Assembly: GCA_947089145.1 (NCBI GenBank)
Contig: CAMUJH010000010.1
Coordinates: 22,529 to 86,528, forward strand
Direction: 5' to 3'
Origin: an uncultured Hungatella sp.
GTDB taxonomy: Bacteria; Bacillota; Clostridia; Lachnospirales; Lachnospiraceae
DNA length: 64,000 bases
The position numbers and the translations under genes were made by a program. Each line of letters begins with the position of its first letter. Position 1 is the stretch's first letter. Of the stretch, positions 10,143 to 27,835 are shown piece after piece. Below the pieces are notes generated by a model. That model was not told the DNA's origin. It made no database searches and worked only from the letters and a program-made list of their open reading frames with translations.

Positions 10143-10475
10143 ATGAGTGTTACAGTGAACATTTTTTATTCAGGAACAAATGGAAACGCACGGAAATTTG
10201 CAGAAGAAATGGAGAGCACAAAAACAGCAGATGCCATCCGCAGGGAAGAAGGGAATCTTTGCTATGAATATTTCTTTCCCATGAATGATCCGGAAACCGT
10301 TCTGCTGATAGACAGCTGGACAGACCAGAAGGCCATTGATGTACATCACGCTTCGCCTATGATGGAAACCATCACACGGCTCCGGGAAAAATACGATCTT
10401 CACATGAAAGTCAGGCGTTATAGATCAGATGAAGGAGGAATACCTGCATCCGATAACCGGTTTATAAAAGAATAA
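10143..10475 (+). CDS. Antibiotic biosynthesis monooxygenase (ABM) domain protein
   Basis: This 110-residue protein looks like the ABM/YgiN dimeric ferredoxin-fold family. It has an N-terminal beta strand (VTVNIFYSG), a helix, then the hallmark EEGNLCYEYFFPMNDPET and LIDSWTDQKAIDVHHASPMM. Family members include quinol monooxygenases and heme-degrading enzymes. The conserved tryptophan and histidine (DSW, HH) are present, but no reaction can be assigned. A strong AGGAGGG site lies nine bases before the ATG. It precedes a diguanylate cyclase gene by 44 bases in the same direction, so the pair may share a transcript. Confidence 0.7.
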   Translation: MSVTVNIFYSGTNGNARKFAEEMESTKTADAIRREEGNLCYEYFFPMNDPETVLLIDSWTDQKAIDVHHASPMMETITRLREKYDLHMKVRRYRSDEGGIPASDNRFIKE

Positions 10476-10519
10476 ATGCGTCATCATTTTGGGGTCTATG
10501 AAAAGCCAGAGGGGAAAAC

Positions 10520-11923: not shown

Positions 11924-11956
11924 TTCTGTACTGCCCTGGGCAGTCTCTGCCTAACA

Positions 11957-11997
11957 CTGCCTTGCGGATAACCTTAACCGTTATTTTTGCAAGGCAG
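11957..11997. terminator. Stem-loop between convergent genes
   Basis: Nine-base arms CTGCCTTGC and GCAAGGCAG enclose an inner stem (ATAAC/GTTAT). It lies between the convergent ends of the diguanylate cyclase gene and the degenerate flavoprotein gene. No clear U tract follows on either strand, so terminator activity is inferred from position. Confidence 0.45.
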
Positions 11998-12011
11998 CAC
12001 TGATGTTTTTA

Positions 12012-13604
12012 TCAGGCAGAATGCAGGGAGTTTAAATAATTTTCCAGAGCCTGGGCAATCAGCCTTTCCATCCGAAGCAGTTTCCCTTTGTTCTTTTTCA
12101 TGAGTACAATTCTGGACTTTGCCATGTCCATAATGCGCGCTGCCTCGTCCCCTGCACACATCCCTGCCGTCCCGCTCCTCCTCAGCGTTTTTTCCGCCTC
12201 CGACAGCCTTATGGGAACCGGGGCAATCCCGCCAAAGGCCATTCTTAGATCCATTATTGTTCCATTTTTCCCCAAAAAGGCATATGCCAGGGCAATCTCT
12301 TTGTCACACACGCACCCGCTTACGAAATCGCCGCTTTTGGGGATCACCAGGCATATGGCCTCCTCCCCTGGCTCCCATTTCTTCCATGGGCTTATCTCTG
12401 CAAAGTAATCCTGGGCCCGAATCACCCTCCTGCTGGTATGGATCTCTGTTTCCAACATAAACAGCGCAGTTTCCGTCCGGCTTTCACAGACGCCAAAGCA
12501 GCCGCAGTTTACGCACCGCGCCGCCTCCCGGATCACCGTGTTCTGCGGTGTATCTTCTGAAGGCTTTGCCCACTGTGCCGGGGGAATCTCCACGCCTTCA
12601 AACCGGAAGCTTCCCAGGGGGCCCATTGGCTCCAGATAAGATTTCAGTCCGAAGTCCAGGTTAATCCGGCCGGCGGTCCTTACCCCAAGACAGATTTCTT
12701 CCAGCACGTTTTGAAGTTCTGCTGTCCCCTGCGCCGCTTTTTCGCCTGCTTTCCATGAAAGCTGCCGATCAAACAAACGGCCAGGCTCCTTTTCGCCAAT
12801 GGCACCGTCTTCAAACACAACTCCCATAAAAGAAAGATGAGCCATATAAGCTGCCAGCGGTTCCTCCATGGCCTCAGCCAGGCTATGGCCAAGGCAGGAC
12901 AGAACTTCCCTGGCCTCTTTCTTTTTAAAGATAACCACATGGTTTCCCATCCTCCGCAGATAATAGGCGGCTGTCAGCCCTGCAACCGTAACCTCCTCTA
13001 TGGCGATCCATTTGCCGCTGTCTCCGGAAGGCGGTATAAAAAAGATCTCCGGGTGCCTTCCTATGTCCGCCCCAAGCCAGTGCAGGATTTTTTCTGCCGC
13101 AACGCTTTGATTCTGCTGGTTTCGGACGCAGCGGGCGCTGCACTTTTTGCACAGGAGGCAGACCATTTCCGTCAGAGGATGGTATTTCATCAGGGTGCGC
13201 TGAGCCTCCAGCTTTTTATCATTTCTCATGTGTTCCAGCACTGCAGGTATATCGACTCCCACCGGGCATGCCTGGCTGCAGGCGGAAATCCCGACTTTTT
13301 TATTTCCCATTACTGAATTCATCTGGTTTTCCCCTGCCGCTGCGTAGCAGGCTGTCCCTCCGTCCTTCAGACAGGGCGCCGCTTTTGCGTTTCGGCTGGC
13401 ACAGAATATGTCCTGAAAAAGAATCTGTTTCAGCGGCATGTTTTCCCTGGCTATGCCCCGCTCCAGGTCCAGGCGTATGCCTGCTGCCGCTGCCGCCGCT
13501 TCCCGCCTTATGCAGTCTGAACGCAGCAGCTGCCCCAAAGTCACATCCGCACCTGCTGTAATCACATCTTCCTGCTCAGTAATCCGCCTTCTCTCATCCT
13601 CCAT
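12012..13604 (-). CDS. Degenerate paralogue of the CoxM-GltD fusion flavoprotein
   Basis: This 530-residue protein has no recognised function. It follows the plan of its 783-residue upstream neighbour but is shortened and has lost binding motifs. The CoxM-like start (GADVTLGQLLRS) lacks the IAGGTDL and ATIGGNL FAD loops. The GltD-like iron-sulfur segment is kept (CSQACPVGVDIP, then VCLLCKKCSARC). The dinucleotide loop GGGPAGLTAAYYLRK has become EEVTVAGLTAAYYLRR, and the second GGGN Rossmann loop is gone. The C-terminal CoxM half is recognisable (RCVNCGCFGV, MAFGGIAPVPIRLSEAEK). The frame is open throughout. The start is uncertain: an ATG at 13604 or a GTG at 13613, both with weak ribosome binding sites. 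It may be a pseudoenzyme, an electron-transfer or assembly subunit, or a gene beginning to decay. Confidence 0.65.
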   Translation of the reverse strand: MEDERRRITEQEDVITAGADVTLGQLLRSDCIRREAAAAAAGIRLDLERGIARENMPLKQILFQDIFCASRNAKAAPCLKDGGTACYAAAGENQMNSVMGNKKVGISACSQACPVGVDIPAVLEHMRNDKKLEAQRTLMKYHPLTEMVCLLCKKCSARCVRNQQNQSVAAEKILHWLGADIGRHPEIFFIPPSGDSGKWIAIEEVTVAGLTAAYYLRRMGNHVVIFKKKEAREVLSCLGHSLAEAMEEPLAAYMAHLSFMGVVFEDGAIGEKEPGRLFDRQLSWKAGEKAAQGTAELQNVLEEICLGVRTAGRINLDFGLKSYLEPMGPLGSFRFEGVEIPPAQWAKPSEDTPQNTVIREAARCVNCGCFGVCESRTETALFMLETEIHTSRRVIRAQDYFAEISPWKKWEPGEEAICLVIPKSGDFVSGCVCDKEIALAYAFLGKNGTIMDLRMAFGGIAPVPIRLSEAEKTLRRSGTAGMCAGDEAARIMDMAKSRIVLMKKNKGKLLRMERLIAQALENYLNSLHSA

Positions 13605-13836
13605 GTTTCCCACTCTTTCTCAAATTATAAATTCCCCTGCACTGTTTATGGGTTTGCTTGCCGTCTTGCCATCGCTTATTTCCGGGGCTGATTTTCTTTC
13701 AGGCGGGCGATCCCTTTTGGGGTGCGCCCGGCCCTTGGGCATTTTCCGAAATCCGGGGCAAAAAGACTTAGAAAGCATCTTTCGCAGTGCAGGGGATCTT
13801 ATGTATAGCGGTTTTCAATCAGTTTTTAATCACTTT

Positions 13837-16188
13837 TTACAGTTCCAGAGAGCGTACCAGCTGAGTCTTCAGTTCCTGAAGCTTATAGCTGTTTTCCCTC
13901 ATGGGGACTGCATCTTTCATGGCCTGTGCAAATGCTGCCTCCGCCAGTTCTTTTGATTTCTCTTTTCCGATCATCATCTTTTCCGCCTCTGTAAGACGAA
14001 CCGGTATGGGGGCAATTCCGCCTGCCACCAGGCGGGCATCAGTTATAACGCCGTTTTCTTCTTTATAAGCGTATGCCAGAGCAGTCACTGCAAAGTCGAT
14101 GGCCTCCCGCAGGCGCATTTTCAGATACCCTGTGCGGTATCCGGCAAATTTGGGGATGGCAATCGCTGTTACCAGTTCACCAGGCTCCAAGATGCCGGCT
14201 GCGTCCATGTTTCCAAAGAATTCTTCCGCCCTGAATTCATGGGCCGTTGTCTTCACCACTGCATCCAAAGCCACCATCACATTGGCCATATCCGACGCAT
14301 TGACCGAATAGCAGCCGCAGTTCATGCAGCGTCCTGCCTCTTCCTTTGCCTCTTGGGCTGTCAGGCTGTCAGAATCTTCCCGTTCCAGGCTTCTGAGCCC
14401 TGCCGGAGTGTCCTTTTCAGTGCAGGCGGCAGTAATGCCTACTTTTTCTGGATCAAATTTTAAGAACCCTTTCTTTCTGGTTCTCTCTTCCAGAGGGAAT
14501 CCCATATATCTGCTCATGCTTCTGGCTGCTATGCCGCCGTCCCGGATAGCCTTAATGGCAACGGACGGCCCTGATGCCGCATCTCCGCCTGCATAGATGC
14601 CTGGCGCCCTGGTATCCTTATGCTCTCCCACCTGAATCAGGCCTTTTGCATTTTTCAGTTCCTCTTTATACTTGTCGCCTAAAAAGTCTGTATCCACCTT
14701 CTGTCCTGTGGCCAATATAATGCAGTCGGAATCAAACACCTGGGTTTCGTCGGAATAAACCGGGTTAAAATGCCCGTCTTTGTCAATGACGGATACGCAC
14801 TTTACGCTCTTTAAGCCTGTTACCTTGCCGTCACCGTCGGTGAGAACCTGTTTTAAGCCCCAGCCGTTGAAGATCTCAACGCCCTCCTCCTGGGCTCTGG
14901 CAATCTCCTCCGCAGACGCGGGCATGTCCTCACGCTGCTCCAGGCAAACCAGCTTTACCTTCTGGGCGCCCAGGCGCACTGCTGTCAGCGCCACGTCCAT
15001 GGCCACGTTTCCGCCGCCGCAGACCAGGACTTCCCTGCCGATCTGCCTGCTCATAAATTGCTTCACTTCCACCAGGAAATTCAGCCCGAACTGTGTCAGG
15101 TTCTCCCCGTCAAAACCGAGAATAGGCTGCTTCCATGCGCCGGTATCCAGAAATACTGTGTCATTGGCCTCCTTCACCTGTTCCAGGGACAGATCCTTCC
15201 CAATCTCTGTACTGGTCTTAAATAAAATTCCCATGCCGGCCAGGGCTTTCACCAGATCGCGCACATAGTGCTTAGGCAGCCTGTACTCCGGAATTCCGTA
15301 CATAAGAACGCCGCCTGCTTCTTCCATCTTTTCATAGACCGTCACCTGGTGCCCGGCCTTTCTTAAGTAGTATGCAGCCGTAAGTCCTGCCGGGCCGCCG
15401 CCGACGATTGCCGCCTTTTTTCCCGTTGTCTCTGACGGGGCCTGGTAGAATTGCTGTGCATGGTCCAGAATGTAGTCTCCAAGCGCGCGCTCTACGGAAT
15501 GGATGCTTACAGAATCGCCGTAAGCGCACTGGTTGCAGGCGCTTTGGCAGGTGTGGGGACAGACTCTGGAGGTCAGCATAGGCATGGGGTTTGCTTCCAT
15601 GATAATTTCCGCCGCACCGTCCCAGTCATTTTCACGGATTTTCTCCATGTATGCCGGAATGTCGGTTCCTGCCGGGCATTCCAGGGTGCAGGGGGTCTTT
15701 CCGGCTTTCATGCCGCCCATAATGGAGTGGTACTGGTTCCGCCCCTGGACGGCATAGCACTGATCCCCGCCTTTTCTTGCGCACACAAGGCGTCCGCCTA
15801 CAGAGTCCGGATAACGGTAATACCAGCAGCGCACATCCTGGCAGAGATTGCCTCCTATGGTTGCCGCATTGCGGACAATGGGCGTGGCAACGCTGTGGGC
15901 CGCCTCTGCCACTGCCTTCAATTCTCCCTTAAATGCGTCGGCCTCTTCCACATCCCTTAATTTTGTCAAAGCGCCGACAGTGATTTCATCACCTTCGTCA
16001 TGAATATAGGCGGCGCCGGGAATGGTCTTTAAGTTGATCACCGCTTCCGGGTAATCCGGAAGAATCTTCTCCTTCAGCGCGCCTACCAGATCCGTTCCTC
16101 CTGCAATTGGCCGGGCATTCTTATAGGAAGTCAGCCCCCTTGTTGCTGCCTCAAAGCTTTCTGCATTGATATGTTCAAAATTTTTCAT
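13837..16188 (-). CDS. FAD subunit of molybdenum hydroxylase with inserted GltD-like reductase
   Basis: This 783-residue protein is probably the FAD subunit of the molybdenum hydroxylase encoded just upstream. Residues 1-157 are the N-terminal part of a CoxM/XdhB-type FAD domain, with IAGGTDL at 28-34 and ATIGGNL at 109-115. From about 165 to 620 comes a complete GltD-like unit. It holds iron-sulfur cysteines (CTLECP at 167, RVCPHTCQSACNQC at 208-221), a first dinucleotide loop GGGPAG at 263, a second GGGNVAMD at 391, and AGGDAASG at 533. The CoxM fold then resumes (CMNCGCYSVNASDMANVMVALDA, residue 621 onward) to the end. Electrons could thus move from FAD to a second flavin and NAD(P). It lies 12 bases after the molybdopterin subunit gene. 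Confidence 0.88.
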   Translation of the reverse strand: MKNFEHINAESFEAATRGLTSYKNARPIAGGTDLVGALKEKILPDYPEAVINLKTIPGAAYIHDEGDEITVGALTKLRDVEEADAFKGELKAVAEAAHSVATPIVRNAATIGGNLCQDVRCWYYRYPDSVGGRLVCARKGGDQCYAVQGRNQYHSIMGGMKAGKTPCTLECPAGTDIPAYMEKIRENDWDGAAEIIMEANPMPMLTSRVCPHTCQSACNQCAYGDSVSIHSVERALGDYILDHAQQFYQAPSETTGKKAAIVGGGPAGLTAAYYLRKAGHQVTVYEKMEEAGGVLMYGIPEYRLPKHYVRDLVKALAGMGILFKTSTEIGKDLSLEQVKEANDTVFLDTGAWKQPILGFDGENLTQFGLNFLVEVKQFMSRQIGREVLVCGGGNVAMDVALTAVRLGAQKVKLVCLEQREDMPASAEEIARAQEEGVEIFNGWGLKQVLTDGDGKVTGLKSVKCVSVIDKDGHFNPVYSDETQVFDSDCIILATGQKVDTDFLGDKYKEELKNAKGLIQVGEHKDTRAPGIYAGGDAASGPSVAIKAIRDGGIAARSMSRYMGFPLEERTRKKGFLKFDPEKVGITAACTEKDTPAGLRSLEREDSDSLTAQEAKEEAGRCMNCGCYSVNASDMANVMVALDAVVKTTAHEFRAEEFFGNMDAAGILEPGELVTAIAIPKFAGYRTGYLKMRLREAIDFAVTALAYAYKEENGVITDARLVAGGIAPIPVRLTEAEKMMIGKEKSKELAEAAFAQAMKDAVPMRENSYKLQELKTQLVRSLEL

Positions 16189-16200
16189 TCCACTGACCTC

Positions 16201-18492
16201 CTATGCTTTTCCAAGTGCTTTCAGAATCTTGTCCGGAGTTGCAGGATATTCATTGATCTCAGCGCCGCCAATGGCATTCTCAATGGCCATCAGAACCGCT
16301 GCCGGGCCGGCTGCCCCGGTGATCTCGCCGATGCCAATGGCGCCAAAGGGGTTGGCCGTGGGGAAGCGTGACTCCAGAACCGAGGTTTCAAAATTGGGGA
16401 GCTCGTTAAAAGGCCTCCACTTGTAATCAATAAGATTGTGGGTCACCACACGGCCAATGTTGGTGTCCAGTATAAACTCCTCCAGCTGGCCGGTGTCCAT
16501 GCCTGCAGAACCCAGGCCGCCTTCAAACTGCATTTTCAGCTCGATGGGGCTGATGATCTGGCCCACGTCGGAACCGCTGAGGGCATTTACGATCTTGGCC
16601 AGCCCCGTCTCCAGATCCACTTCCACCTCCACAAAGTTCATCACGCAGTTGTTGTGGTTAAAGTCGCCTTCTACCATGCCCTGTCCCGTAATGGAGTAAT
16701 ACATGGGGCAGATTGCCATCCACGGAAGGCTCACCGACGGATCATCCTTCTTAAACACCACCAGATCCTTCGTGTCCAGTTCTTCGGCTTTGCAGCCTAA
16801 TTTGACGGCCGCCTCTTCCAGCAGTTTCTCTCTTGCCGCCATGGCCGCCCGCCCTACCGCGCCGCCTGCAGTAATGGTTTCGCGGGAACCTGCCGCCCCG
16901 AAATCCGCAGGATCGGTTCTGGTATCCGACTCATTCAGAGTAACGTTTTCCAGAGGCACATTTAAAATCTCGGCCGCCGTCTTGGCCAGGGCCAGCCTTT
17001 GGCCGTTTCCGAACTGGGAAACAACGCAGTGTACCATTACCTGATCGTTTTCCAGCCTTACATAGGCAAATGTCTCGTCGCTTTGAGGATCTCCGCTGCT
17101 GTGAATGCTGAAGCCTACGCCGTACGCCTTGCTTCCCTCCACGCGGGTGGGCACGCCCCAGCCCTTCCATTTCTCATGCCAGCCGAATTTTTCAGCTGCC
17201 ACGTCAAAACACTTGTCATAATTGATCACCGGGTTGCTGTACTTGTGGCCAGTCCTCCAATAGTACTGATCCCCTGCCTGGCAGAAGTTCTTCTTAAAGA
17301 AAGTAACCGGGTCCATATCAATCTGTTTTAATGCCCGGTTCAGCAGATGAAGCGCACAGGCTTTCAGTTCCTGGCCTCCAAATCCCCTGGCGATTCCCAC
17401 TGGAATCATGTTGGAAACCACCACCTTTGCCGTGATGTCCCAGTTAGGGGTCTTATTTAACGCCAGGTGCAGTTCGCCAAGGCCCTCGGCAACCTGGCCC
17501 TGAGTCAGCTCAGAGCCTGCGCCGGTGCCTACCAGCCAGTCGCCCTGAAGGGCACGCATCATGCCGTCTTTGGTGATGCCGATTTTCCCCATAAACTTAT
17601 TGTTAAGGCGCCGTTCATAAACCAGCAGGTGTTCTTCCTTGGTCATGGCATATTTTACGGTGCATCCCGCCGTTTTTGCCAGCGCCACAATCAGCATGGC
17701 CGTATATCCCAAAGCGTCCTTATTGCCGTAGCTTCCTCCCACATTGGGAGTGGTAACATTAATATGGGCGCCAATGGTCGCCGCCAGGGGCCTTGCTACC
17801 ATGTTCGGCCCCTGGGAAGAAGCCCACACGCTTACATGAGTGTCATCATCCCATCCGGCCGCTATAAAAGGAGATTCCGGCGCTCCTGGGAATGTCCAGG
17901 TGTAGGAAACCTTTCCTTCCACCACCACGTCGCTTTCCGCAAATCCCTTTGCCACGTCGCCTTCCTGGATCTTGTAAAACGGCGGGTCGTTGCCTTCAAA
18001 CCAGCTTCCCGGGGGAAGGCAGTTGTTCTCATAGTGGAAACCTTTTGATTCGATGTTGTCTTCTTTCCGATACACTTCCGGCGCTCCCGGCTTAATGGCA
18101 TCCTCCACGTCAAAAACCGGAGTCAGAACCTTATACTCCACCTTGATCAGTTCCAGGGCTTCCTCTGCAATCTGCGCGGAAACCGCTGCCACCGCTGCCA
18201 CCGGATCGCCCGTAAACCGCAGGTGCTGATCCATGACCGGCCTGTGGGCGGGAACGCCTGTTTTCCAGGCAGGGGCGTTTTTGTAGGTCATCACGCCCTT
18301 TACTCCAGGCAGGGCCTCTGCGGCAGAAGTATCAATGGAAACGATCTCCGCATGAGGATAAGGGCTGTGAAGGATCTTGGCAACACAGGCATTTTTAAAT
18401 TTAATGTCATCACAGTAAATGGCTTTTCCTGTTACAATTGCCCGGCCGTCCTGGCGGCGGCGCACTTTTCCGATATGGCGATATTCTGTCAT
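16201..18492 (-). CDS. Molybdopterin-binding subunit of xanthine dehydrogenase-type hydroxylase
   Basis: This 763-residue catalytic subunit belongs to the xanthine dehydrogenase/aldehyde oxidoreductase family, which hydroxylates substrates at a molybdenum-cytosine-dinucleotide centre. It has the N-terminal a/b hammerhead domain (about 15-125) followed by the two cofactor domains. PNVGGSYGNKD and the substrate-pocket segment ARGFGGQE (xanthine dehydrogenase has FRGFGG) are visible. The catalytic glutamate is E723 in GIGEITGAAG. The arginine of ARGFGG fits purine- or aldehyde-type members and not CO dehydrogenase, but the substrate is unknown. The ATG overlaps the upstream stop as ATGA, behind GGAGGG. 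Confidence 0.92.
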   Translation of the reverse strand: MTEYRHIGKVRRRQDGRAIVTGKAIYCDDIKFKNACVAKILHSPYPHAEIVSIDTSAAEALPGVKGVMTYKNAPAWKTGVPAHRPVMDQHLRFTGDPVAAVAAVSAQIAEEALELIKVEYKVLTPVFDVEDAIKPGAPEVYRKEDNIESKGFHYENNCLPPGSWFEGNDPPFYKIQEGDVAKGFAESDVVVEGKVSYTWTFPGAPESPFIAAGWDDDTHVSVWASSQGPNMVARPLAATIGAHINVTTPNVGGSYGNKDALGYTAMLIVALAKTAGCTVKYAMTKEEHLLVYERRLNNKFMGKIGITKDGMMRALQGDWLVGTGAGSELTQGQVAEGLGELHLALNKTPNWDITAKVVVSNMIPVGIARGFGGQELKACALHLLNRALKQIDMDPVTFFKKNFCQAGDQYYWRTGHKYSNPVINYDKCFDVAAEKFGWHEKWKGWGVPTRVEGSKAYGVGFSIHSSGDPQSDETFAYVRLENDQVMVHCVVSQFGNGQRLALAKTAAEILNVPLENVTLNESDTRTDPADFGAAGSRETITAGGAVGRAAMAAREKLLEEAAVKLGCKAEELDTKDLVVFKKDDPSVSLPWMAICPMYYSITGQGMVEGDFNHNNCVMNFVEVEVDLETGLAKIVNALSGSDVGQIISPIELKMQFEGGLGSAGMDTGQLEEFILDTNIGRVVTHNLIDYKWRPFNELPNFETSVLESRFPTANPFGAIGIGEITGAAGPAAVLMAIENAIGGAEINEYPATPDKILKALGKA

Positions 18493-18989
18493 GCTGTTTT
18501 CCCTCCCTCTAAGACGGATTTTACCGCTTCGATCACCTGATAATGGCTGATGCAGCGGCAGTAGTTTCCTGACAATGCCTCTTTGATCTCATCCTCCGAT
18601 GGATTTGGATTGCCATTCAGCAGTGACTTTACGGCAATGATAATCCCCGGAGTGCAGAATCCGCACTGAAATGCATTGTGCTCCAGAAACGCCTCCTGAA
18701 TGGGATCAAGTTCCCCTGTAACCGGATCGCCCAGACCCTCAATGGTGATGATCTCTTTCCCCTCGCACTCTGCTGTCAGAGTAATGCAGGATGCCACTGC
18801 CTTTCCGTCCATAAGCACTGCGCAGCAGCCGCAGGCCCCCTGCCCGCAGGACATCTTGCTTCCGGTAAGCCCTATCCTCTCCCTGAGGGTTTCCAAAAGC
18901 GTTTCTGATTCCGGAATCTGTCCCAGCTTCCGTCCAATGGTAAACTCGTAGGTTTCTCCATTGATATTTAATGTCAAATCCCTGCTCAT
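18489..18989 (-). CDS. [2Fe-2S] subunit of molybdenum hydroxylase
   Basis: This 166-residue electron-transfer subunit (CoxS/XdhC type) carries both expected clusters. The plant-ferredoxin-like N-terminal domain has CGQGACGCCAVLMDGKAVASC (residues about 43-63). The four-helix C-terminal domain has CGFCTPG and NYCRC. It should pass electrons from molybdenum to the FAD subunit. It is the first gene of the hydroxylase operon, with AGGAG six bases before its ATG. The operon is divergent from a Crp/Fnr-type regulator gene. Confidence 0.94.
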   Translation of the reverse strand: MSRDLTLNINGETYEFTIGRKLGQIPESETLLETLRERIGLTGSKMSCGQGACGCCAVLMDGKAVASCITLTAECEGKEIITIEGLGDPVTGELDPIQEAFLEHNAFQCGFCTPGIIIAVKSLLNGNPNPSEDEIKEALSGNYCRCISHYQVIEAVKSVLEGGKTA

Positions 18990-19081: not shown

Positions 19082-19225
19082 TTCCCGATTATTTTTGTAT
19101 ATGCATAGATAGTTTTTTTGTGAAAATCGTCTATGTATCCATTGCTTTTTCAGCTAATTTTTGTTAAAATATTGTCGATATTCGGGTTGCTAGTTTTCCT
19201 TTTTGTAGAATCTGGAGGAGCGGTT

Positions 19226-19885
19226 ATGGGTGATATTCAATTTGTGTTTGAGGGGAATTTTTTGAAATACAGAACATTGTTCCTGGAAATGTGCCCTCCT
19301 CCCATGACTATCCGAAGAGGTTCTGTCTTATGCGCCCAGTGCCATACCAGCGGCTGGATGTATTATATGCTGGATGGGATTTCCAAGGTTTACATTACCA
19401 CAAATGACGGCAATGAACGGATCATTGACTTTATGAAAAAAGATACCCTTATCGGAATGGACTGCATTAACCCGAAGCACCGCTCCGTGGTGAGCATTTC
19501 CAGCATTACCGATATGCAGGTTCTCCCTTTTACACCGGAGATGCTTAAAAAAATGCTTCTTAAGAATCCTGAACTTGGCTTTGACCTGGCCGTCTACTAT
19601 GGCGAAGTTCTCCGGCAGGTGGCTTACACTGCAGGAAATATGGGGATCGCGGACCTTATGGGGCGCCTGGCCTCATTTCTGCTTCTCTTTCTGGATACGC
19701 CGGACTATAAAGAAACGCAGAAAATAGGCCTGACTCAGGAAGAGATCGCCTCCTTCATCAACGTTTCCAGGGCCCAGGTGGCCAAGATGTTCGGAAAGCT
19801 GCGGAAAGAGGGAATTATTGCAACAGGCAACCGCTATGTCACTGTCCTTGACCAGAAAAAACTAATGGAATACAGCGCTTTTTAA
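19226..19885 (+). CDS. Crp/Fnr family transcriptional regulator
   Basis: This 219-residue protein has an N-terminal cyclic-nucleotide-binding-like beta barrel (about 20-130), a long dimer helix, and a C-terminal winged helix. The recognition helix lies in TQEEIASFINVSRAQVAKMFGKL. I chose the ATG at 19226 because GGAGGAG precedes it; the frame is open back to 19133 with a hydrophobic leader that looks like chance. Two cysteines (CPPP and CAQC) are near the N-terminus, but the four-cysteine Fnr pattern is not evident. Because it is divergent from the hydroxylase operon, it probably regulates that operon. The signal is unknown. Confidence 0.85.
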   Translation: MGDIQFVFEGNFLKYRTLFLEMCPPPMTIRRGSVLCAQCHTSGWMYYMLDGISKVYITTNDGNERIIDFMKKDTLIGMDCINPKHRSVVSISSITDMQVLPFTPEMLKKMLLKNPELGFDLAVYYGEVLRQVAYTAGNMGIADLMGRLASFLLLFLDTPDYKETQKIGLTQEEIASFINVSRAQVAKMFGKLRKEGIIATGNRYVTVLDQKKLMEYSAF

Positions 19886-19890
19886 CGATT

Positions 19891-20220
19891 ACTATGAAAG
19901 TATCTAATCCTTGCTGTAGGTCTGCGCATATGCTGCGCTGACCGTATAGCGACAAAATGCCTGTTTTTGGCATTTTGTGTGCATCCCCCGGAGGGTTCAT
20001 AGTAAACCCCCCACTTTCATTTATGGTGGTGCCGGGAAAACGGCATGGGGGTTTACTATGAAAGTAACGAATCCTCACGGTAGGTCTGCGCATATGCTGC
20101 GCTGACCGTACGGCGCCAAAATGCCTGTTTTGGCATTTTGTGTGCATCCCCCCGACGGTTTATAGCAACCCCCTCTTTCATGGGTGGTGGTGCAGCCGCC
20201 CGCCGGGCCCATGCAGGTTT
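19891..20220. repeat. Two tandem ~165-bp palindromic repeat units
   Basis: Unit 1 is 19891-20054 and unit 2 is 20055-20220. Both begin ACTATGAAAGTA and share about 90 percent identity over the first 100 bases by eye, then diverge. Nested dyads include CAAAATGCC/GGCATTTTG at 19953-19977 (repeated at 20117-20140) and TTACTATGAA (19889)/TTCATAGTAA (19996). CATAGTAAACCCCC (from 19998) also pairs with GGGGGTTTACTATG (ending 20060). A remnant of the unit start (GTTTACTCGGAAGA) runs into the end of modC. The stretch fills the gap between the Crp/Fnr-type gene and modC and holds no gene. Confidence 0.85.
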
Positions 20221-21325
20221 ACTCGGAAGATACCAAGGGCATTATATGAGCCGGGTCTATAAAAACCCGGATAACTTCCCCCTCCTGTCTGGCGCAGGCC
20301 GCCCACTGCTCCTTGGACATTTCCAGGCGCAGCTGGCTGCCGTCCTGACCGGAAGCTCCGTTTAGGGGGCTTGCCATGACCACCATATGGAAAACGTCCT
20401 CTACAATCCGCAAGATCCGGCATTCTATCACGTTTTTCCTTTCGTCCCCTTCTCCCAAAGCCACATGGATGGCATGGCTTCTGACGCCGATATGGGTAAT
20501 ATTTTCCGGGACAGGGCGCTCACATTCAAGCTCCACTCCCCAGTCACAGGCCAAAACCCATGCGCCGCCTTCCCTGCCCGGCCCAAAAGCCGGCCTTGCT
20601 GCCGAATAGTTTTTACAGCCGGACAGCTGGCAGGCTGCCATGGTTTTCGGCTCTTCAAACATGGCTTTTACAGAAACCGCCGGCGCAGACCTGCCGTTTT
20701 CCATAACGCAGACTCTGGAGCAAAGGCGGTAGATCTCGTCTCTGCTGTGGGACACGAACAGGGTGGTAGAGTCAAACTCCTTCAAAATGTCCATCAGCTC
20801 CAGCTCCAGCTTCCACTTAAGATACCCGTCCAAGGCTGAGAAAGGCTCATCCAGCATTAAAAGCCGGGGCCTGGCCAGCAGGATTCTAGCCAGGGCCACC
20901 CTCTGCTGCTGTCCGCCTGAAAGTTCAGACGGCCGGTGCTTTTCCAGTCCTGTCAGATAAAACCTTTCCACAAATTCCCTCACCTGATCCCTGGCCTTTT
21001 TTCTGTCTTTTTCCCATGGCCTGACTCCGGCCATAAGGTTCTTTTGAACGGTCATGTTGGGAAACAATGCGTAATTCTGGAACAGCAGCCCCACATGGCG
21101 CTTCTGCGGCACAAGATTAATGCCTTTCTCCGAATCAAACAGGGTAACGCCGTTAAGTGCGATCCTTCCCTTGTCAGGCTTTATGGTCCCCGCTATGCAT
21201 TTTAGAGTCATGCTCTTGCCGCATCCTGACGCTCCCAGAATTCCCATAACCTCCTGTTCCGCCTCAAATTTCGCGCGCAGGCAAAAGCCGCTGAACTTTT
21301 TTTCTATATCCACATATAATGACAT
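20219..21325 (-). CDS. modC: Molybdate ABC transporter ATP-binding protein ModC
   Basis: This 368-residue ATPase energises molybdate import with ModB. It has Walker A GASGCGKS, the signature LSGGQQQR, Walker B LLMLDEP, and the H-loop FVSHSRDE. The C-terminal 120 residues form a Mop/TOBE-like oxyanion domain, which in ModC proteins can sense molybdate. The last codons run into the palindromic repeat. It follows modB by seven bases. Substrate assignment rests on the ModA and ModB neighbours and the cofactor genes beside it; tungstate is an alternative. Confidence 0.9.
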   Translation of the reverse strand: MSLYVDIEKKFSGFCLRAKFEAEQEVMGILGASGCGKSMTLKCIAGTIKPDKGRIALNGVTLFDSEKGINLVPQKRHVGLLFQNYALFPNMTVQKNLMAGVRPWEKDRKKARDQVREFVERFYLTGLEKHRPSELSGGQQQRVALARILLARPRLLMLDEPFSALDGYLKWKLELELMDILKEFDSTTLFVSHSRDEIYRLCSRVCVMENGRSAPAVSVKAMFEEPKTMAACQLSGCKNYSAARPAFGPGREGGAWVLACDWGVELECERPVPENITHIGVRSHAIHVALGEGDERKNVIECRILRIVEDVFHMVVMASPLNGASGQDGSQLRLEMSKEQWAACARQEGEVIRVFIDPAHIMPLVSSE

Positions 21326-21332
21326 GGCACAA

Positions 21333-21995
21333 TCACTTCCTTTTACTTTTCCGCTCCAGCATATTGACCGTCAGAAGCACTGCCGCCGAAATGGCCAAGT
21401 TCACCATGACCCATTGGAAGGCCAGAGTATCGTTGTCCGTCCGCCACAGCTGGTAGACAGTGGTAGAAATGGTAGCCGTCTTGCCAGGGGTATATCCTGC
21501 CAGCATGCTGGTAGCTCCGTACTCCCCCAGAGCCCTGGCAAAAGCCAGAACCGCTCCTGCCAGAATCCCCTGGCGGCACACGGGCATGCGGATATGCCAG
21601 AAAATATAAGTGTTGGACAGCCCCAGGGTCTGGCCTGAATAGGCCAGGGTTTCATCAAAGCTTTCAAAGGCCCCCCTTGCCGTCCTGTACATCAGGGGAA
21701 ACGCTACCACGGAGGCGGCAAAGATTCCGGAATACCAGGTCATTACCAGCTTTATTCCGAAATTTTCCATAAACCAGATGCCAAGGGGACGCTTTGTCCC
21801 AAGAAGCAGCAGGAGAAAATACCCTGCCACTGTAGGGGGAAGCACCATGGGAAGGGTCAGCACCACGTCCAGGATTCCTTTCACCACCCGGTTCAGCCTG
21901 GCAATATAGTAAGCGGCAAAAATGCCCGCAAAAAACACGATGACGCTGGAAATCAAGGCGATCCGCAGCGAGTTGTAGAGAGGATACCAGTCCAT
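21333..21995 (-). CDS. modB: Molybdate ABC transporter permease ModB
   Basis: This 220-residue membrane protein has five to six predicted helices. The inner-membrane permease motif that contacts the ATPase is present as EYGATSMLAGYTPGKT, in the EAA-loop region. It is cotranscribed with modA and modC, and AGGAG lies upstream of the ATG at 21995. ModA feeds molybdate to it from outside. Length and motif are typical for ModB. Confidence 0.93.
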   Translation of the reverse strand: MDWYPLYNSLRIALISSVIVFFAGIFAAYYIARLNRVVKGILDVVLTLPMVLPPTVAGYFLLLLLGTKRPLGIWFMENFGIKLVMTWYSGIFAASVVAFPLMYRTARGAFESFDETLAYSGQTLGLSNTYIFWHIRMPVCRQGILAGAVLAFARALGEYGATSMLAGYTPGKTATISTTVYQLWRTDNDTLAFQWVMVNLAISAAVLLTVNMLERKSKRK

Positions 21996-22094
21996 ATGAA
22001 TTCTCCTGTTATGTTTCCTGCCGATTCTGTGAAATGGCCGTCCGCCCGCCTGACTTCCATGGGGGCGGCGCCTCCCCAGCCGGGCGCATGGAGG

Positions 22095-23009
22095 TTACTG
22101 CGCCATAGTAAATCCTACGGCCTCAAAAACCGCCCTGCACTCATCTCCAGTCAGATAATCCAAAAATTCTTTGGCCTCCTCCTTGTTCTTTGAGCCCTTT
22201 AACACGGCGGCAGGATAAATAACCTGCTTGCACTGATCCTTATCCGCCTCGTCCACCACGGTCAAGCCTGCAGAAAAAGCGTCTGTGGCATAAATAATCC
22301 CGCAGTCCACCGAAGCTTCCTTCACCTGGGTGGTCACCTCTTTTACATTGGAGCCATATGTGATCTTTGAGCCCGATTCCAGCTGTTGTAAAATGCCAAG
22401 GCTGGTCAGAATTTCGATGGAATACGCTCCCACAGGCACGTCTTCATTGCCAAGACAAAGCAGGTTCAGCTTATCTGTCCCCAGATCCTCATATGTCTCA
22501 ATGCCTGCCGGATTGCCGTCCGGGACTGCCAAAACCACCTTGTTTTCCACCAGGTTAAACCTGGTTCCTTCCTGGACAAGGTCCAGCCCATCCGTATTCA
22601 CCGAAGAATCTGCGGTAATATCCAGCTGGTTCATCTGCTTTTGTGCAGCGGAAATAAAGATATCACAGTCAGCTCCCTCCTCAATCTGGGTTTTCAAGGT
22701 GCCAGACGAGTCAAACGTATAGACAATCTCCACACCAGGCTTTATCTCTTTATACATTTCGGCAATTTCTGTCATGGTTTCCGTCATGGACGCCGCCGCA
22801 AAAATCAGCAGTTCCACCTTATCCTCCTCTGTTTCGCCTGCAGCTGCCTTTGTCTCTTCCGCCCTTTTTTCCTGCGTCGTCTCAGCGCTTAGGGCGCTTC
22901 CACTTTCGGCGGCAGTCGTCCCGCCTGCGGCGTTGTCATTTCCGCCGCACCCTGCCAGAAAGTTCATTGCCAATACCCCCGCCAGTACTGATGCATACAG
23001 TTTCTTCAC
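22095..23009 (-). CDS. modA: Molybdate-binding lipoprotein ModA
   Basis: This extracellular lipoprotein captures molybdate for ModBC. I chose the GTG at 23009. GAGGAG lies seven bases before it, and the product then starts with a normal lipoprotein signal ((M)KKLYASVLAGVLAMNFLAGC). Upstream ATGs at 23027 and 23054 lack a good site. After the lipobox cysteine comes a spacer rich in A, E, T and K, then the solute-binding domain beginning LLIFAAASMTETM. That segment holds the serine typical of oxyanion contact; a second is in YTFDSSGTLKTQI. About 304 residues. It heads a modABC operon with its own promoter region. Confidence 0.92.
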   Translation of the reverse strand: MKKLYASVLAGVLAMNFLAGCGGNDNAAGGTTAAESGSALSAETTQEKRAEETKAAAGETEEDKVELLIFAAASMTETMTEIAEMYKEIKPGVEIVYTFDSSGTLKTQIEEGADCDIFISAAQKQMNQLDITADSSVNTDGLDLVQEGTRFNLVENKVVLAVPDGNPAGIETYEDLGTDKLNLLCLGNEDVPVGAYSIEILTSLGILQQLESGSKITYGSNVKEVTTQVKEASVDCGIIYATDAFSAGLTVVDEADKDQCKQVIYPAAVLKGSKNKEEAKEFLDYLTGDECRAVFEAVGFTMAQ

Positions 23010-23052
23010 AATTTTCTCCTCTCGCATTGTTCTTCTATTTAATCCTATCCGC

Positions 23053-23113
23053 AAACGAACGTTATTTAAAAATCGAACGCTTTTATTATTGACTTCTAAT
23101 CATTTTTCGGCAA
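23053..23113 (-). promoter_or_regulatory. modABC promoter and candidate operator
   Basis: On the minus strand TTGCCG (23108-23113) and AATAAT (23085-23090) are 17 bases apart and fit a sigma-A promoter. Just downstream, CGAACG occurs at 23056-23061 and 23074-23079, 18 bases apart, around a quasi-palindrome CGTTATTTAAAAATCG (23060-23075). This resembles the half-site spacing logic of ModE boxes but is not the E. coli consensus. A closely similar 29-bp sequence is inside the mocA-modE gene (28553-28581). Confidence 0.5.
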
Positions 23114-23152: not shown

Positions 23153-24094
23153 TTATTTGCGTCCGCATTCTGATGCGGTTCCCCGCAGGATCTCCAGCCC
23201 ATGAGCCAGTGAGTCCATAATAAATCCCATGCTTTCCTTTACCGCCTTAGGGCTGCCCGGCAGATTGACGATGAGAGTCCTGCCCCGGATCACAGACGCT
23301 CCCCTGCTTAACATGGCCCGGCTTGTAAGCTCCATGGAACGGTATCGGATATACTCTGCGATTCCCGGCGCATTGCGGTCAGCCACTGCCATGGTTGCCT
23401 CCGGCGTCTGATCCCGCATGGAAAACCCTGTTCCGCCGCTTGTCACCACCAGATCCACCTGCCGTCCGTCTGCCAGGCGCTTTAACTGGGTTTTAAGGGC
23501 GGCCGGATCGTCGGCGACAATCACCGTCTCCACCACTTCATACCCGGCTTTTTCCAGAATTTCTGCTGCCGCCGGGCCGCTTTCATCCGCCCTCTCCCCT
23601 CTTGCCCCCTTGTCGCTGACCGTGATCACCGCCGCCGTAAAAGGCCTGTCAGGCTCTGGAAATATTACTGTCAGCTGATCTCCCGGAGAAATGTCACCCT
23701 CCTTTTCCACCTGGGCGAACACCCCCTCATGGGGCATGATGCACTCCCCCATACGCTTAAAAATGGCGCAGTGGCTGTGGCACTCCTTCCCAATCTGGGT
23801 CATCTTAAGCTCTGCCGTCCCTACCAGAAAACGGCTTCCCACAGGAAGGCTCCTGAAGTCAATGCCTTCCACCACCAGGTTCTCGCCAAAAGCTCCGTGA
23901 TCCACATTGGCGCCTTTTTCATTAAACGCCTTCACCTTGTCATAAGAAAGCAGGCTGATCTGCCGATGCCACTTTCCTGCGTGGGCATCCCCGTCAATGC
24001 CATGGTCAGGCCGCACGTGAATCCTGTCCGTCTCATGCTTTTCTGTCCCTTTTTTCTCACTGATGCAAACGGCCTTTACGATTCCTGTAATCAT
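23153..24094 (-). CDS. MOSC-MogA fusion, molybdopterin adenylyltransferase
   Basis: This 313-residue protein joins two molybdenum-cofactor modules. Residues 1-145 form a MOSC domain, with DHGIDGDAHAGKWHRQ, ENLVVEGID and the conserved cysteine in IGKECHSHC. Residues 150-313 form a MogA/MoaB domain, with VITVSDKGARGERADESG, VVTSGGTGFSMRDQTPEAT and VNLPGSPKAVKES. MogA adenylates molybdopterin before metal insertion. MOSC domains bind or transfer sulfur, or carry molybdopterin. It is the last gene of the cofactor operon, about 80 bases after moaC, and has its own AGAGGA site. Confidence 0.9.
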   Translation of the reverse strand: MITGIVKAVCISEKKGTEKHETDRIHVRPDHGIDGDAHAGKWHRQISLLSYDKVKAFNEKGANVDHGAFGENLVVEGIDFRSLPVGSRFLVGTAELKMTQIGKECHSHCAIFKRMGECIMPHEGVFAQVEKEGDISPGDQLTVIFPEPDRPFTAAVITVSDKGARGERADESGPAAAEILEKAGYEVVETVIVADDPAALKTQLKRLADGRQVDLVVTSGGTGFSMRDQTPEATMAVADRNAPGIAEYIRYRSMELTSRAMLSRGASVIRGRTLIVNLPGSPKAVKESMGFIMDSLAHGLEILRGTASECGRK

Positions 24095-24173
24095 GATATT
24101 TCATTCCTCTCAAAATTTATAGCCTCTGCAGGCGATTGCTGAATTTAAAACTTTGGTTTCCCAGCCTTTTTGT

Positions 24174-24665
24174 CTACAGTCTTTTTGGCGATCTCTCGTT
24201 TAAAAATTCTCCGCTTTTTCCGCCGCTTTTCTGCTCCAGATAGATCTCCCCCATCTCCATTCCCCTGTCCACTGCCTTGCACATGTCATATATGGTTAAA
24301 AGGGCCACTGTAACCCCTGTCAGCGCCTCCATCTCCACTCCTGTCTTTCCGGTTGTCCGGGCCGTACACCGTGCCTGAATCTCATGCCGCTCCTCATTCA
24401 TATTAAAATCCACAGACAGCTTTGTCAGATTCAGCCCATGGCACAAAGGAATCAGCTCCCAGGTCCTTTTAGCCCCCATGATCCCCGCTATCCGGGCCAC
24501 TGCCAGCACGTCGCCTTTCTTTACGTCACCCTGCCGCACCATGGAGAAGCACTGGGGGCTCATAAAAATGCTGCCTCGGGCCACCGCTTCCCGTCTGGTA
24601 TCCTCCTTTTCTCCCACGTCTACCATCCATGCGTTGCCCTGCCCGTCAAAATGCGTAAATTCCAT
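24174..24665 (-). CDS. moaC: Cyclic pyranopterin monophosphate synthase MoaC
   Basis: This 163-residue enzyme completes the conversion of GTP to cyclic pyranopterin monophosphate after MoaA. Recognisable family segments are WMVDVGEKEDTRREAVARG, the LIPLCHGLNLTK loop and the VEMEALTGVTVALLTIYDMCK signature, whose lysine and aspartate are catalytic. The ATG lies two bases beyond the moaA stop and is preceded by GGAGGG, so the two genes are coupled. Confidence 0.96.
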   Translation of the reverse strand: MEFTHFDGQGNAWMVDVGEKEDTRREAVARGSIFMSPQCFSMVRQGDVKKGDVLAVARIAGIMGAKRTWELIPLCHGLNLTKLSVDFNMNEERHEIQARCTARTTGKTGVEMEALTGVTVALLTIYDMCKAVDRGMEMGEIYLEQKSGGKSGEFLNERSPKRL

Positions 24666-24666
24666 C

Positions 24667-25689
24667 TTACCCTCCGATTTTCATCATATCCTTATTTTCC
24701 GTCATCTGCTCCGGATGCTCAAAGCAGTGGGCCATGGGCTTTGCCCATATGGCCTGCTTCATGGCTTCCAAAAGTTTTCTGTCCGTTTCCTCCTTGGTCC
24801 CGCCTTCCCGGAGAACCGCCCGCAGGTCTTTGCCGTCCTCATAGCAAAGGCAGCTTTTTAGGTATCCCTGGGAGGTAAGCCGAATCCGGTTGCACCCGCC
24901 GCAGAATTTTCCATGGATTGCGCTGATAAAGCCGATGCTGCCCTTAAATCCGGGAATGCGGTAATAGATCGCCGGGCCGTTGCCGTGGCTTCTGCCATCC
25001 TTTTCCAGGCCCGGGTACTGCTCCTGCAGCTTGGCAAGCACTTCCTTATGGCTTAAAGACCGGTACTGCTTTCCATACCCAATGGGCATCATTTCAATAA
25101 ACCGCACATCTACGGGATAATCCCTGGCAAGCTTTAAAAGCTCCGGCCATCCGGGGCCGTCATAGCCGCATCCCAGCCCTTCTGCCACTGCCTTCAATTC
25201 CAGGGATACCGCGTTGATCTTAACCGGAATGGGCTTCCCCTGGAAAAGCTGCAGCGCCTGCTCCAGCCCTTTGAGGACCGCCAAAAGGCTTCCTCCCCCT
25301 GTCAGAGCCTGGTACAGGCCGGGATCTAAAGTGTCCAGGCTGATATTAATGCCGTCAATTCCCGCCGCGGCTAGCTGTCCCAGGTACTGCTCCAGAAGAA
25401 TGCCGTTGGTGGTAATGGTTACCTTCTCGATCCCTCTGGTTTCTTTCAGCATGCGGACAAGATCGCAGCATCCCAGCCGCACCAAGGGCTCCCCTCCCGT
25501 AACCTTGATCTTGCGTATCCCAAGAAGCGCACCGCAGGTGGCAATGCGGGCATATTCCTCCAGGGTCAGAATCTGGGACATGGGCACGCATTTTACGCCG
25601 TCGGGCATGCAGTAGCGGCAGCGCAGATTGCATCGGTCCGTGATGGATATTCTCATATAATCAATTTCCCGTCCAAAACCATCCTTCAA
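24667..25689 (-). CDS. moaA: GTP 3',8-cyclase MoaA
   Basis: This 340-residue radical-SAM enzyme catalyses the first step of molybdopterin synthesis. The SAM cluster is CNLRCRYC. The C-terminal cluster that binds GTP is in FCGGCNRIRLTSQGYLKSCL. It starts at a TTG codon with AAGGAAG upstream. Alignment supports this start, because MoaA proteins begin with a DGFGREIDYMRIS-like segment just before the first cluster. The extreme C-terminus lacks the usual terminal GG and ends MMKIGG within the moaC site. Confidence 0.95.
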   Translation of the reverse strand: MKDGFGREIDYMRISITDRCNLRCRYCMPDGVKCVPMSQILTLEEYARIATCGALLGIRKIKVTGGEPLVRLGCCDLVRMLKETRGIEKVTITTNGILLEQYLGQLAAAGIDGINISLDTLDPGLYQALTGGGSLLAVLKGLEQALQLFQGKPIPVKINAVSLELKAVAEGLGCGYDGPGWPELLKLARDYPVDVRFIEMMPIGYGKQYRSLSHKEVLAKLQEQYPGLEKDGRSHGNGPAIYYRIPGFKGSIGFISAIHGKFCGGCNRIRLTSQGYLKSCLCYEDGKDLRAVLREGGTKEETDRKLLEAMKQAIWAKPMAHCFEHPEQMTENKDMMKIGG

Positions 25690-25691
25690 GG

Positions 25692-26750
25692 CTATCTTCC
25701 TTTCCCGAATCCGCAGTTAGGAAATGTACATGCAGGACAGTTCAGGCACAGCCCGCCTTGTCCCAAAGCCGCCAGTTCGCCGGCAGACACCGGATCATCG
25801 GCCATGACTCTCGGCAGCACCAGATCAAAAATCGTCCGTTTTGCATACATGACACAGCCTGGCAGCCCCATAATTGCCACGGTTTTTTCCTGCCCCTGCT
25901 CCTCGCTTTTATAATAGGCCAGCAAAAACATGGCGCCCGGCAGCACCGGCGCCCCGTAAGAGACGATCTGGGCTCCGGTATTCTTAATGGCCAGTGGCGT
26001 CTTGTCATCAGGGTCCACGCTCATGCCTCCTGTGCAGATTACCACGTCCGCCCCTTTTCCTATCATGTCCAGGATGGAGCCGGTTACCTTTTTATCGTCG
26101 TCATTCCAGGTTACATGATCAATAACCTCCGCGTCAAACTCCTCCAGCTTCTGGCGGATCACGGGTGTGAAGGTATCCTGAATTCTTCCGTAAAAGACTT
26201 CGTTTCCCGTAGTTATAATACCTACCTTTTTATGTACGAAAGGTTTCAGCTCCAAAATAGGTTTATTGCCGGTAACCTCCATGGCCGCCTGACGGGCCCT
26301 TTCCATCTTCTCCTCCCGGATAACCAGAGGGATGATTCTTGTTCCTGCCAGCTTGTCGCCCTTTTTCACGGCAAAGTCACCGTGGCGGGAGGCGATCATC
26401 ATTTCTCCCAGGCCGTTAACCGCCTTCAGCCCCCTGTCGTTAACCTTCAATAGCCCGTCGCATTCTGCGGTGATCTCGATCTTCCCTTCTTTTACCTGTG
26501 ACCGTCCCATATGCTCTCCCCGGCACATGCCGCAGAGGATCTCGGCAGCGTCATTTTCATGAAGGACCCCCTCCTCCTGCTCCCACACATACAGCTGATC
26601 CTTGCCTACGCTTAGAAGTACTGGAATATCTTCTTTTGTAACAATATGTCCTTTGCGAAACACCGCATCTTTGGTAACTCCTTTTATGATCTGGGTAATG
26701 TCATGGCACAGCACCGCGCCCTCCGCATCCACTGTAGGGATCAATCTCAT
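25692..26750 (-). CDS. MoeA-like molybdopterin-binding protein with cysteine tail
   Basis: This 352-residue protein contains a MoCF-biosynthesis domain (KVGIITTGNEVFYGRI at about 170, ICTGGMSVDPDDKTP at about 240, GLPGCVMYAKRTIFD at about 300). It probably inserts molybdate into, or carries, adenylated molybdopterin. It is shorter than classical MoeA (about 400) and lacks the usual C-terminal domain IV. It ends instead in a cysteine-rich tail, CLNCPACTFPNCGFG. The start overlaps the end of the upstream gene as ATGA. RefSeq-style names for such proteins are simply 'molybdopterin-binding protein'; the exact step is inferred. Confidence 0.85.
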   Translation of the reverse strand: MRLIPTVDAEGAVLCHDITQIIKGVTKDAVFRKGHIVTKEDIPVLLSVGKDQLYVWEQEEGVLHENDAAEILCGMCRGEHMGRSQVKEGKIEITAECDGLLKVNDRGLKAVNGLGEMMIASRHGDFAVKKGDKLAGTRIIPLVIREEKMERARQAAMEVTGNKPILELKPFVHKKVGIITTGNEVFYGRIQDTFTPVIRQKLEEFDAEVIDHVTWNDDDKKVTGSILDMIGKGADVVICTGGMSVDPDDKTPLAIKNTGAQIVSYGAPVLPGAMFLLAYYKSEEQGQEKTVAIMGLPGCVMYAKRTIFDLVLPRVMADDPVSAGELAALGQGGLCLNCPACTFPNCGFGKGR

Positions 26751-27835
26751 CTGTCTTGTCCTCCGTCTATATGCATTTGTATGATTTTTTCTATTTTCTT
26801 TGCCTGTCTGTACCGTCTCTCATGGGCCGCCAGAGCCGCCTGCTGGTTTTCAGACGCTTCACACCGCTTCCGGCTGTCTGCAAACCGCTTATCAAGCGGC
26901 ACCGCCGTCTCCTCCTCCACCTGCTTGTCCGCCAGGTACACCACAGCCGACTCCAGCCATAAGGGTTCTCCCGGCTTTTCCGGGCATTCCAGGTCATGGT
27001 GGCGCCGTATTACCTCCGCCACTGCCGGGTATCCCTCCCGCCGCAGTATATAGGCGCCCTTTTCCCCGTGTTCTTTTTCTCCCCGCACCACGTCATGCAG
27101 CAGCGCCCCGCTGCGGATAATCCGGCGATCCGCTTTCTGCCCGGAAGCTTCCAGCCTTTCTGCAAGCCTCTCTGCCTGCCTGCACACTGCCTGGCAGTGT
27201 CTGCGGATTTGCTGCGGCGTCCCGTAATGGTTCCAGATATGAAGGCAGTCCTGATCATCCGGCGCAGGCTTCGGCATAATGCCCAGTTCTTTTACTTCCA
27301 TGCGGCCCTGATCATCCACCTGGATGCGGCTGAAGCAGCCATAAGGCTGAGGCAGCCCCCGTGACACGCTGAGGGAAATCCCCTGAAGCCGTGCCAGGAA
27401 GCAGCTGTTGATCCCTGCGTGGGCCACGCAGATCACGTCTCCCTCCGTCTTGTCCAGAATGCCCTCAATGGCCTCTTTTATCCGCATGCAGCCCTGTTCC
27501 CTGCTTTCCCCTGACTCAGGCCAGGATTCCAAAGTTTTCTTCAGCTGGCTCATGGGGACATTTTCCCATTCCCCCATGTCCAGTTCCCTTAGTCCCTCTT
27601 CTATGTAAACAGAAGCGTGATTCTCTGCCAATAACTCCGCGGTTTCCAGCGCCCTTGCAAGAGGGCTGGAAAATACCGGCACTCGGCTGTCTGTCATCTG
27701 GCGAAAAAAGGCGCCCAGCTCCCTTGCCTGCTTTTGCCCCCTGGAATCAAGAGGAAGATCCGTTCTGCCGATGCACCGGGGCACATTGTCCGGAAACGCC
27801 ACCTGGCCATGGCGGATCAGATAGAGATTTCTCAT
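26747..27835 (-). CDS. Histidine phosphatase-HD domain fusion in cofactor operon
   Basis: This 362-residue protein has an N-terminal histidine-phosphatase (phosphoglycerate mutase-like) domain. It has the catalytic LIRHGQ at residues 6-11, a conserved glutamate region RELDMGEWE, and the second histidine in CVAHAGIN. Residues about 210-330 form an HD-type metal-dependent phosphohydrolase module (LLHDVVRGEKEHGEKGA, then VIRRHHDLE). It is joined to both neighbours by four-base ATGA overlaps, so it should serve the molybdenum cofactor pathway. No such step is established. A phosphatase acting on pterin phosphates or on nucleotide by-products is one possibility. Confidence 0.82.
   Translation of the reverse strand: MRNLYLIRHGQVAFPDNVPRCIGRTDLPLDSRGQKQARELGAFFRQMTDSRVPVFSSPLARALETAELLAENHASVYIEEGLRELDMGEWENVPMSQLKKTLESWPESGESREQGCMRIKEAIEGILDKTEGDVICVAHAGINSCFLARLQGISLSVSRGLPQPYGCFSRIQVDDQGRMEVKELGIMPKPAPDDQDCLHIWNHYGTPQQIRRHCQAVCRQAERLAERLEASGQKADRRIIRSGALLHDVVRGEKEHGEKGAYILRREGYPAVAEVIRRHHDLECPEKPGEPLWLESAVVYLADKQVEEETAVPLDKRFADSRKRCEASENQQAALAAHERRYRQAKKIEKIIQMHIDGGQDR

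Follow-up and report, generated by a model that had tools for sequence, protein, structure and literature searches.

Several described systems share parts with the locus reported here. 4-Hydroxybenzoyl-CoA reductase (HcrABC; 1rm6) likewise has three subunits, and its FAD subunit carries a four-cysteine [4Fe-4S] loop that, unlike the loop described below, holds no insert; its electron donor is ferredoxin (PMC12771579). PaoABC-type aldehyde oxidases (5g5g, 5y6q) give the best structural match to our host FAD domain and have the same four loop cysteines, but they are oxidative and lack a GltD insert. The urolithin C dehydroxylase (Ucdh) of Enterocloster bolteae is a reductive, NADH-run xanthine-oxidase-family enzyme of a gut Clostridial species; it is described with an FAD medium subunit, a two-cluster small subunit and a catalytic subunit, and the available part of that report mentions no GltD part (PMC12771579). 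Compared solely through its published description, Ucdh resembles the reading proposed here in NADH-driven reduction within the same enzyme family.

GltD-like modules (NfnB/NfnI-L, StnC, GltS beta, DPD), the best match of our insert in both sequence and fold, have an FAD, an NAD(P)H domain and two [4Fe-4S] clusters and pass reducing power to another domain (PMC8097209). The known ones are separate subunits or end-to-end domains, whereas here the module is nested, with Cys621 and Cys624 at its far end. In E. coli, YgfM, YgfK and XdhD comprise the same kinds of parts, including a GltD-like stretch in YgfK, but as separate proteins; YgfK has been reported as the next enzyme of its pathway, a yanthine reductase (PMC12507026). 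In a survey of about 5900 organisms, the text available lists a fusion with GltD in the DMSO reductase family but none in the xanthine oxidase family (PMC6147048), and a term search of the accessible text of the review PMC11574389 gave no match. No description of the nested form was found in the accessible literature searched. Although the parts and partners belong to familiar types, that literature describes neither the nesting nor the stripped copy.

The window, a stretch of 64,000 nucleotides from an uncultured Hungatella sp., encodes the following features:

12012..13613, minus strand: stripped paralogue of the nested subunit, 533 aa, just downstream of the nested gene (profile, alignment)
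13837..16188, minus strand: nested subunit, a single 783-aa chain
15715..16188, minus strand: CoxM/HcrB-type FAD domain, first part, residues 1-158 (profile, alignment, structure match)
14314..15714, minus strand: inserted GltD-like module, residues 159-625 (profile, alignment, structure match)
13840..14313, minus strand: CoxM/HcrB-type FAD domain, remainder, residues 626-783 (profile, structure match)
16201..18492, minus strand: Mo (MoCoBD) catalytic subunit, xanthine oxidase family (profiles, tree, structure match)
18489..18989, minus strand: two-cluster [2Fe-2S] subunit, overlapping the start of the Mo gene (profiles, cysteine pattern)
19133..19885, plus strand: CRP-like regulator, divergent from the operon (profile)
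20219..23054, minus strand: molybdate ABC transporter (profile), comprising the next three
20219-21325, minus strand: transporter ATPase, ModC-like, below cut-off (profile)
21333-21995, minus strand: ModB (profile)
22095-23054, minus strand: ModA (profile)
23153..28776, minus strand: Mo-cofactor gene block (profiles), comprising the next six
23153-24094, minus strand: MOSC/MogA-like (profile)
24174-24665, minus strand: MoaC (profile)
24667-25689, minus strand: MoaA (profile)
25692-26750, minus strand: MoCF_biosynth (profile)
26747-27835, minus strand: His-phosphatase/HD (profile)
27832-28776, minus strand: MobA-like NTP transferase (profile)

The operon is thus preceded upstream by a divergent CRP-like regulator, then by molybdate transport and Mo-cofactor genes. 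Homologues of the regulator (58-97% identity) occupy the same divergent place in six of the nine nearest loci. Among the Mo-cofactor genes, that at 26747-27835 (minus strand) combines histidine-phosphatase and HD domains in one protein, and C. citroniae has a similar gene on the downstream side of the operon (13188-14648 of locus L022). No substrate gene was recognised around the window or its clade among the annotated part of the neighbouring genes.

The Mo subunit matches the MoCoBD_1, MoCoBD_2 and hammerhead domains, all three above cut-off, and its partner is a CoxM-type FAD subunit interrupted by the insert, placing the enzyme in the xanthine oxidase family. The cysteine pattern of the [2Fe-2S] subunit is complete, and both clusters are predicted. 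The closest solved structure of the Mo subunit is 4-hydroxybenzoyl-CoA reductase (185 bits), and the subunit exceeds no curated family cut-off. Neither candidate family name was accepted: the 4-hydroxybenzoyl-CoA reductase equivalogs (alpha, beta and gamma) scored far below their cut-offs (307 versus 994.6, 130 versus 404.6 and 152 versus 257.8 bits), and the xanthine dehydrogenase models XdhA and XdhB also fell below theirs (337 versus 780 and 123 versus 310 bits).

The first host part of the nested chain contains the FAD motifs GGTD (30-33) and IGGN (111-114). The insert matches Fer4_20 and an FAD/NAD(P) reductase fold; it carries Cys167, 171, 210, 214 and 218 with Glu233, an FAD loop GGGPAG (263-268) and an NAD(P) loop GGGNVAM (391-397) with Glu417, making it a GltD-like module with ligands for two clusters. 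It ends with Cys621 and Cys624, and the second host part opens with Cys626. Neither any Pfam match nor any of the 25 NCBIfam matches listed out of 97 covers the whole chain; TIGR03315 (YgfK) matches residues 165-628. In the AlphaFold model (pLDDT 88), the host domain aligns end to end with the solved FAD subunit 5y6q_B (311 residues, 2.1 A) and the middle matches Nfn/GltD structures, although the cluster loop is a weaker region (pLDDT 59-75 for residues 111-150 and 52-66 for 31-50). An earlier note, made from the sequence alone, had placed the break in the host FAD fold near residues 157 and 621, with a whole GltD-like module between the halves, bearing its own Fe-S cysteines and two dinucleotide loops. 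Profiles and fold matches agree with this, with the boundaries at 158 and 626; the predicted chain forms one continuous CoxM fold with the module threaded in, rather than two domains side by side. A plain C-terminal GltD fusion, sought as counter-evidence, occurred neither among 80 loci nor among 73 matches. The same note had compared the chain with YgfM and YgfK. The kinds of parts are the same, but model scores and structure matches reject these proteins as the nearest kin: the host, which carries a [4Fe-4S] loop of its own, is of the HcrB/PaoB type, and among solved structures the insert comes closest to GltD modules of the StnC/NfnA type.

The position of the insert was then defined by the cluster ligands. 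Four [4Fe-4S] loop cysteines are aligned in 31 of 34 plain relatives, the remaining three having no loop. In the window these are Cys121, Cys136 and Cys144 before the insert and Cys626 after it. Since the third and fourth cysteines are separated by 476-505 residues in all 44 nested rows (window included), compared with 16-20 in the 31 plain ones, the insert breaks the cluster-binding loop itself. Sequence and model together show a GltD-like reductase that interrupts an HcrB-type FAD domain within its [4Fe-4S] loop.

Eleven cysteines are invariant in 53/53 rows of the nested family, an alignment that includes three stripped paralogues and one pair of identical rows; all 44 nested rows keep Glu233 and the glycines of the two dinucleotide loops. 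Glu233 aligns with Lys170 of StnC, a ligand of the FAD-proximal cluster whose counterpart in NfnB is a glutamate (PMC10482914), and Glu(Cys)3 ligation is given for Nfn and GltS in a review (PMC8097209). The eleven cysteines and Glu233 make twelve putative ligands, enough for three [4Fe-4S] clusters. They may be partitioned into a proximal cluster (Cys171/210/214 and Glu233), a distal cluster (Cys167/218/621/624) and the host cluster (Cys121/136/144/626). Within the GltD part, this assignment follows the ligands of dihydropyrimidine dehydrogenase.

As a general rule, the residue at the end of the strand after the second dinucleotide loop sets NADH or NADPH preference. At this position (417), Glu is found in 38 of the 44 nested rows and Arg in six (L041 and L056-L060). 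The window protein reads LEQ after the loop, compared with YRR in StnC, which uses NADPH (PMC10482914); the YRR motif, typical though not defining of NADPH-type GltD-like modules, is absent from the window protein. On these residues, most nested members should prefer NADH and six NADPH. In the GltD tree, L056-L060 form a clade and L041 lies nearby with its placement unresolved, both separate from the remaining 44 nested rows.

Relatives were collected by a pattern scan of one genome per species, which is not a census: 127 stretches yielded 96 confirmed relatives, and the best 80 of these comprised 50 nested and 30 plain loci, the junction sought in other genomes thereby recurring. Among the nested loci, 48 are full-length and two (L031, L038) are cut by contig ends. 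They belong mainly to Bacillota (Lachnospiraceae, Oscillospiraceae, Erysipelotrichaceae), with others in Klebsiella indica, strain NaphS2 and further records labelled Deltaproteobacteria and Dehalococcoidia. The form is rare, being present in 2/392 sampled genomes of the order and 6/299 of the family (one incomplete), the window's genome included in both. Of the relatives found, the nearest belongs to an uncultured Hungatella, with 97% over the junction region. The window's genome has a second nested operon (contig C21, 47% identity), followed by a NifU-like (NifU_N) gene (L011, 12439-12900), and also a plain operon (contig C73); ORFs of the NifU-like BLAST cluster also follow the nested gene in L042, L043, L047 and L049. 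The nested/plain label requires three changes on the FAD tree, as forced by the starred branches, and three on the GltD tree, where a single origin may still hold.

The partners of the nested subunit vary. In 47/50 nested loci the gene run also contains an ORF for a Mo subunit, either complete or truncated at a contig end. The other three (L048, L053, L054) have a fumarate-reductase-like flavoprotein and no Mo subunit was found in them. Locus L012, identical in sequence to L054, has the nested subunit adjoining such a flavoprotein at 10338-15370. In the [2Fe-2S] proteins of L012/L054 and L048, the first-cluster cysteines are kept and those of the second cluster largely lost. In the Mo-subunit tree, the nested L056, L059 and L060 fall inside the plain clade, for example with Syntrophorhabdus operons, and their Mo subunits are 77-83% identical to three from plain operons. 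Given the plain-clade Mo partners and the fumarate-reductase-like ones, the nested subunit seems to be an interchangeable module for electron entry.

Acyl-CoA ligase genes adjoin L026, L056 and L060, with none in the window's clade. The ligases of L056 and L060 give no pointer to an aromatic acid, because they exceed the cut-off of the long-chain-fatty-acid ligase model and not that of the aromatic one. L059 has an ORF in the same BLAST cluster, and the L029 member of that cluster resembles an amino-acid adenylation domain. In Clostridium asparagiforme DSM 15981, the nested operon is followed by a plain FAD-FeS-Mo operon (L044, 11704-15450), whose Mo subunit is a much nearer relative of 4-hydroxybenzoyl-CoA reductase (413 bits against the alpha model); this plain operon could encode Ucdh.

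We propose, with a probability of about 0.6, that the nested chain would be the NADH-fed entry subunit of a reductive xanthine-oxidase-family enzyme. The earlier note's functional suggestion, direct wiring of the hydroxylase to a pyridine-nucleotide site, would fit this reading. NADH would reduce the GltD FAD, from which electrons would pass through the proximal and distal GltD clusters to the HcrB-type cluster and the CoxM FAD, and then through the [2Fe-2S] subunit to Mo, the site of substrate reduction. Cys624 is followed two residues later by Cys626, which would put the insert's last cluster in direct connection with that of the host. 4-Hydroxybenzoyl-CoA reductase, which also has the extra cluster, takes its electrons from ferredoxin, so the insert would put a built-in NAD(P)H site in ferredoxin's place. 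The stripped paralogue would join the same complex as a flavin-free Fe-S subunit. Reductive use is favoured because a fumarate-reductase-like flavoprotein replaces the Mo subunit in 3/50 nested loci, with second-cluster losses in L012/L054 and L048, and NADH-driven reduction by Ucdh offers a precedent in the same family (PMC12771579). Against this, the [2Fe-2S] protein of L053 keeps its second-cluster cysteines though no Mo gene was seen there, and the aldehyde oxidoreductase PaoABC has the same FAD-subunit loop cysteines.

The direction of electron flow is not fixed by sequence, and the same wiring could run in reverse, the Mo site hydroxylating a substrate and the GltD module passing electrons to NAD+. 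We give this a real but minority chance. Oxidative enzymes make up most of the xanthine oxidase family (PMC12771579), FAD subunits of the PaoB type, which share the loop, are parts of oxidases, and the Mo subunit scores best with xanthine dehydrogenase models, though far below cut-off. The replacement by fumarate-reductase-like flavoproteins and the place of L056, L059 and L060 among Syntrophorhabdus-type Mo subunits argue in the other direction. Plain CoxM subunits, moreover, can reduce NAD+ and need no insert to do so.

A further reading, which we hold to be improbable, is a flavin-based electron-bifurcating or confurcating Mo enzyme, in which the Glu-ligated proximal cluster and the GltD FAD would act as in NfnB and the twelve-cysteine paralogue would add another wire, facing ferredoxin, with NADH and ferredoxin jointly supplying one Mo site. 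If true, the complex would have arisen in two steps, the nesting of a module followed by the stripping of a duplicate of the nested subunit.

Alternatively, the insert might be silent or merely structural, with ferredoxin the physiological donor at the [4Fe-4S] cluster as in 4-hydroxybenzoyl-CoA reductase. The host domain is indeed of the kind found in that ferredoxin-fed enzyme, but the invariance of the glycines of both GltD loops and of all cluster cysteines (44/44) argues against a silent insert. From its place in the cluster loop, the insert probably hides the surface at which ferredoxin used to dock, and we judge this explanation highly unlikely.

The NADH-fed reading includes the product of 12012-13613 as an additional subunit. 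This protein aligns with the nested family across most of its length (profile comparison, E 4e-75), but three regions are missing: the initial FAD segment, the GxGxxG loop and the NAD(P) domain. Leu occupies the Glu233 position. Such losses, and a dN/dS of 0.13-0.22, above the values of the nested gene (0.04-0.10) and the Mo gene (0.02-0.06), would suit a decaying pseudogene outside the system. However, the paralogue is an intact ORF on the same strand downstream of the nested gene in the window and in 9/9 nearest loci (L014-L022), and twelve cysteines are invariant in 10/10 rows despite identity down to 36%. Its dN/dS is well below 1 in all five pairs, which are not all independent, three sharing species. 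The paralogue is under purifying selection, looser than that on the nested gene, and decay has very little probability. Its conserved cysteines and missing motifs suggest a flavin-free Fe-S subunit of the same complex. No such paralogue was seen in the other 41 nested loci, several of which are incomplete, L038 having only a cut fragment.

Finally, an assembly artefact or a plain side-by-side fusion was rejected as having a negligible chance, given 48 full-length nested loci in other genomes, including a complete chromosome, and the single continuous FAD fold of the model.

If the NADH-fed reading is true, the nested subunit would provide a route for running reductive xanthine-oxidase-type enzymes from NADH in anaerobic bacteria; how such enzymes are run in this way is a question raised by the NADH-driven urolithin dehydroxylase. 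It would also present a redox module inside the cluster-binding loop of another domain, with two neighbouring cysteines joining two cluster chains. In the stripped copy, which would be flavin-free, the evolution of a subunit into a pure wire can be put to the test. Found with molybdenum enzymes as well as fumarate-reductase-like ones, the nested entry module may serve as a marker for finding new reductases.
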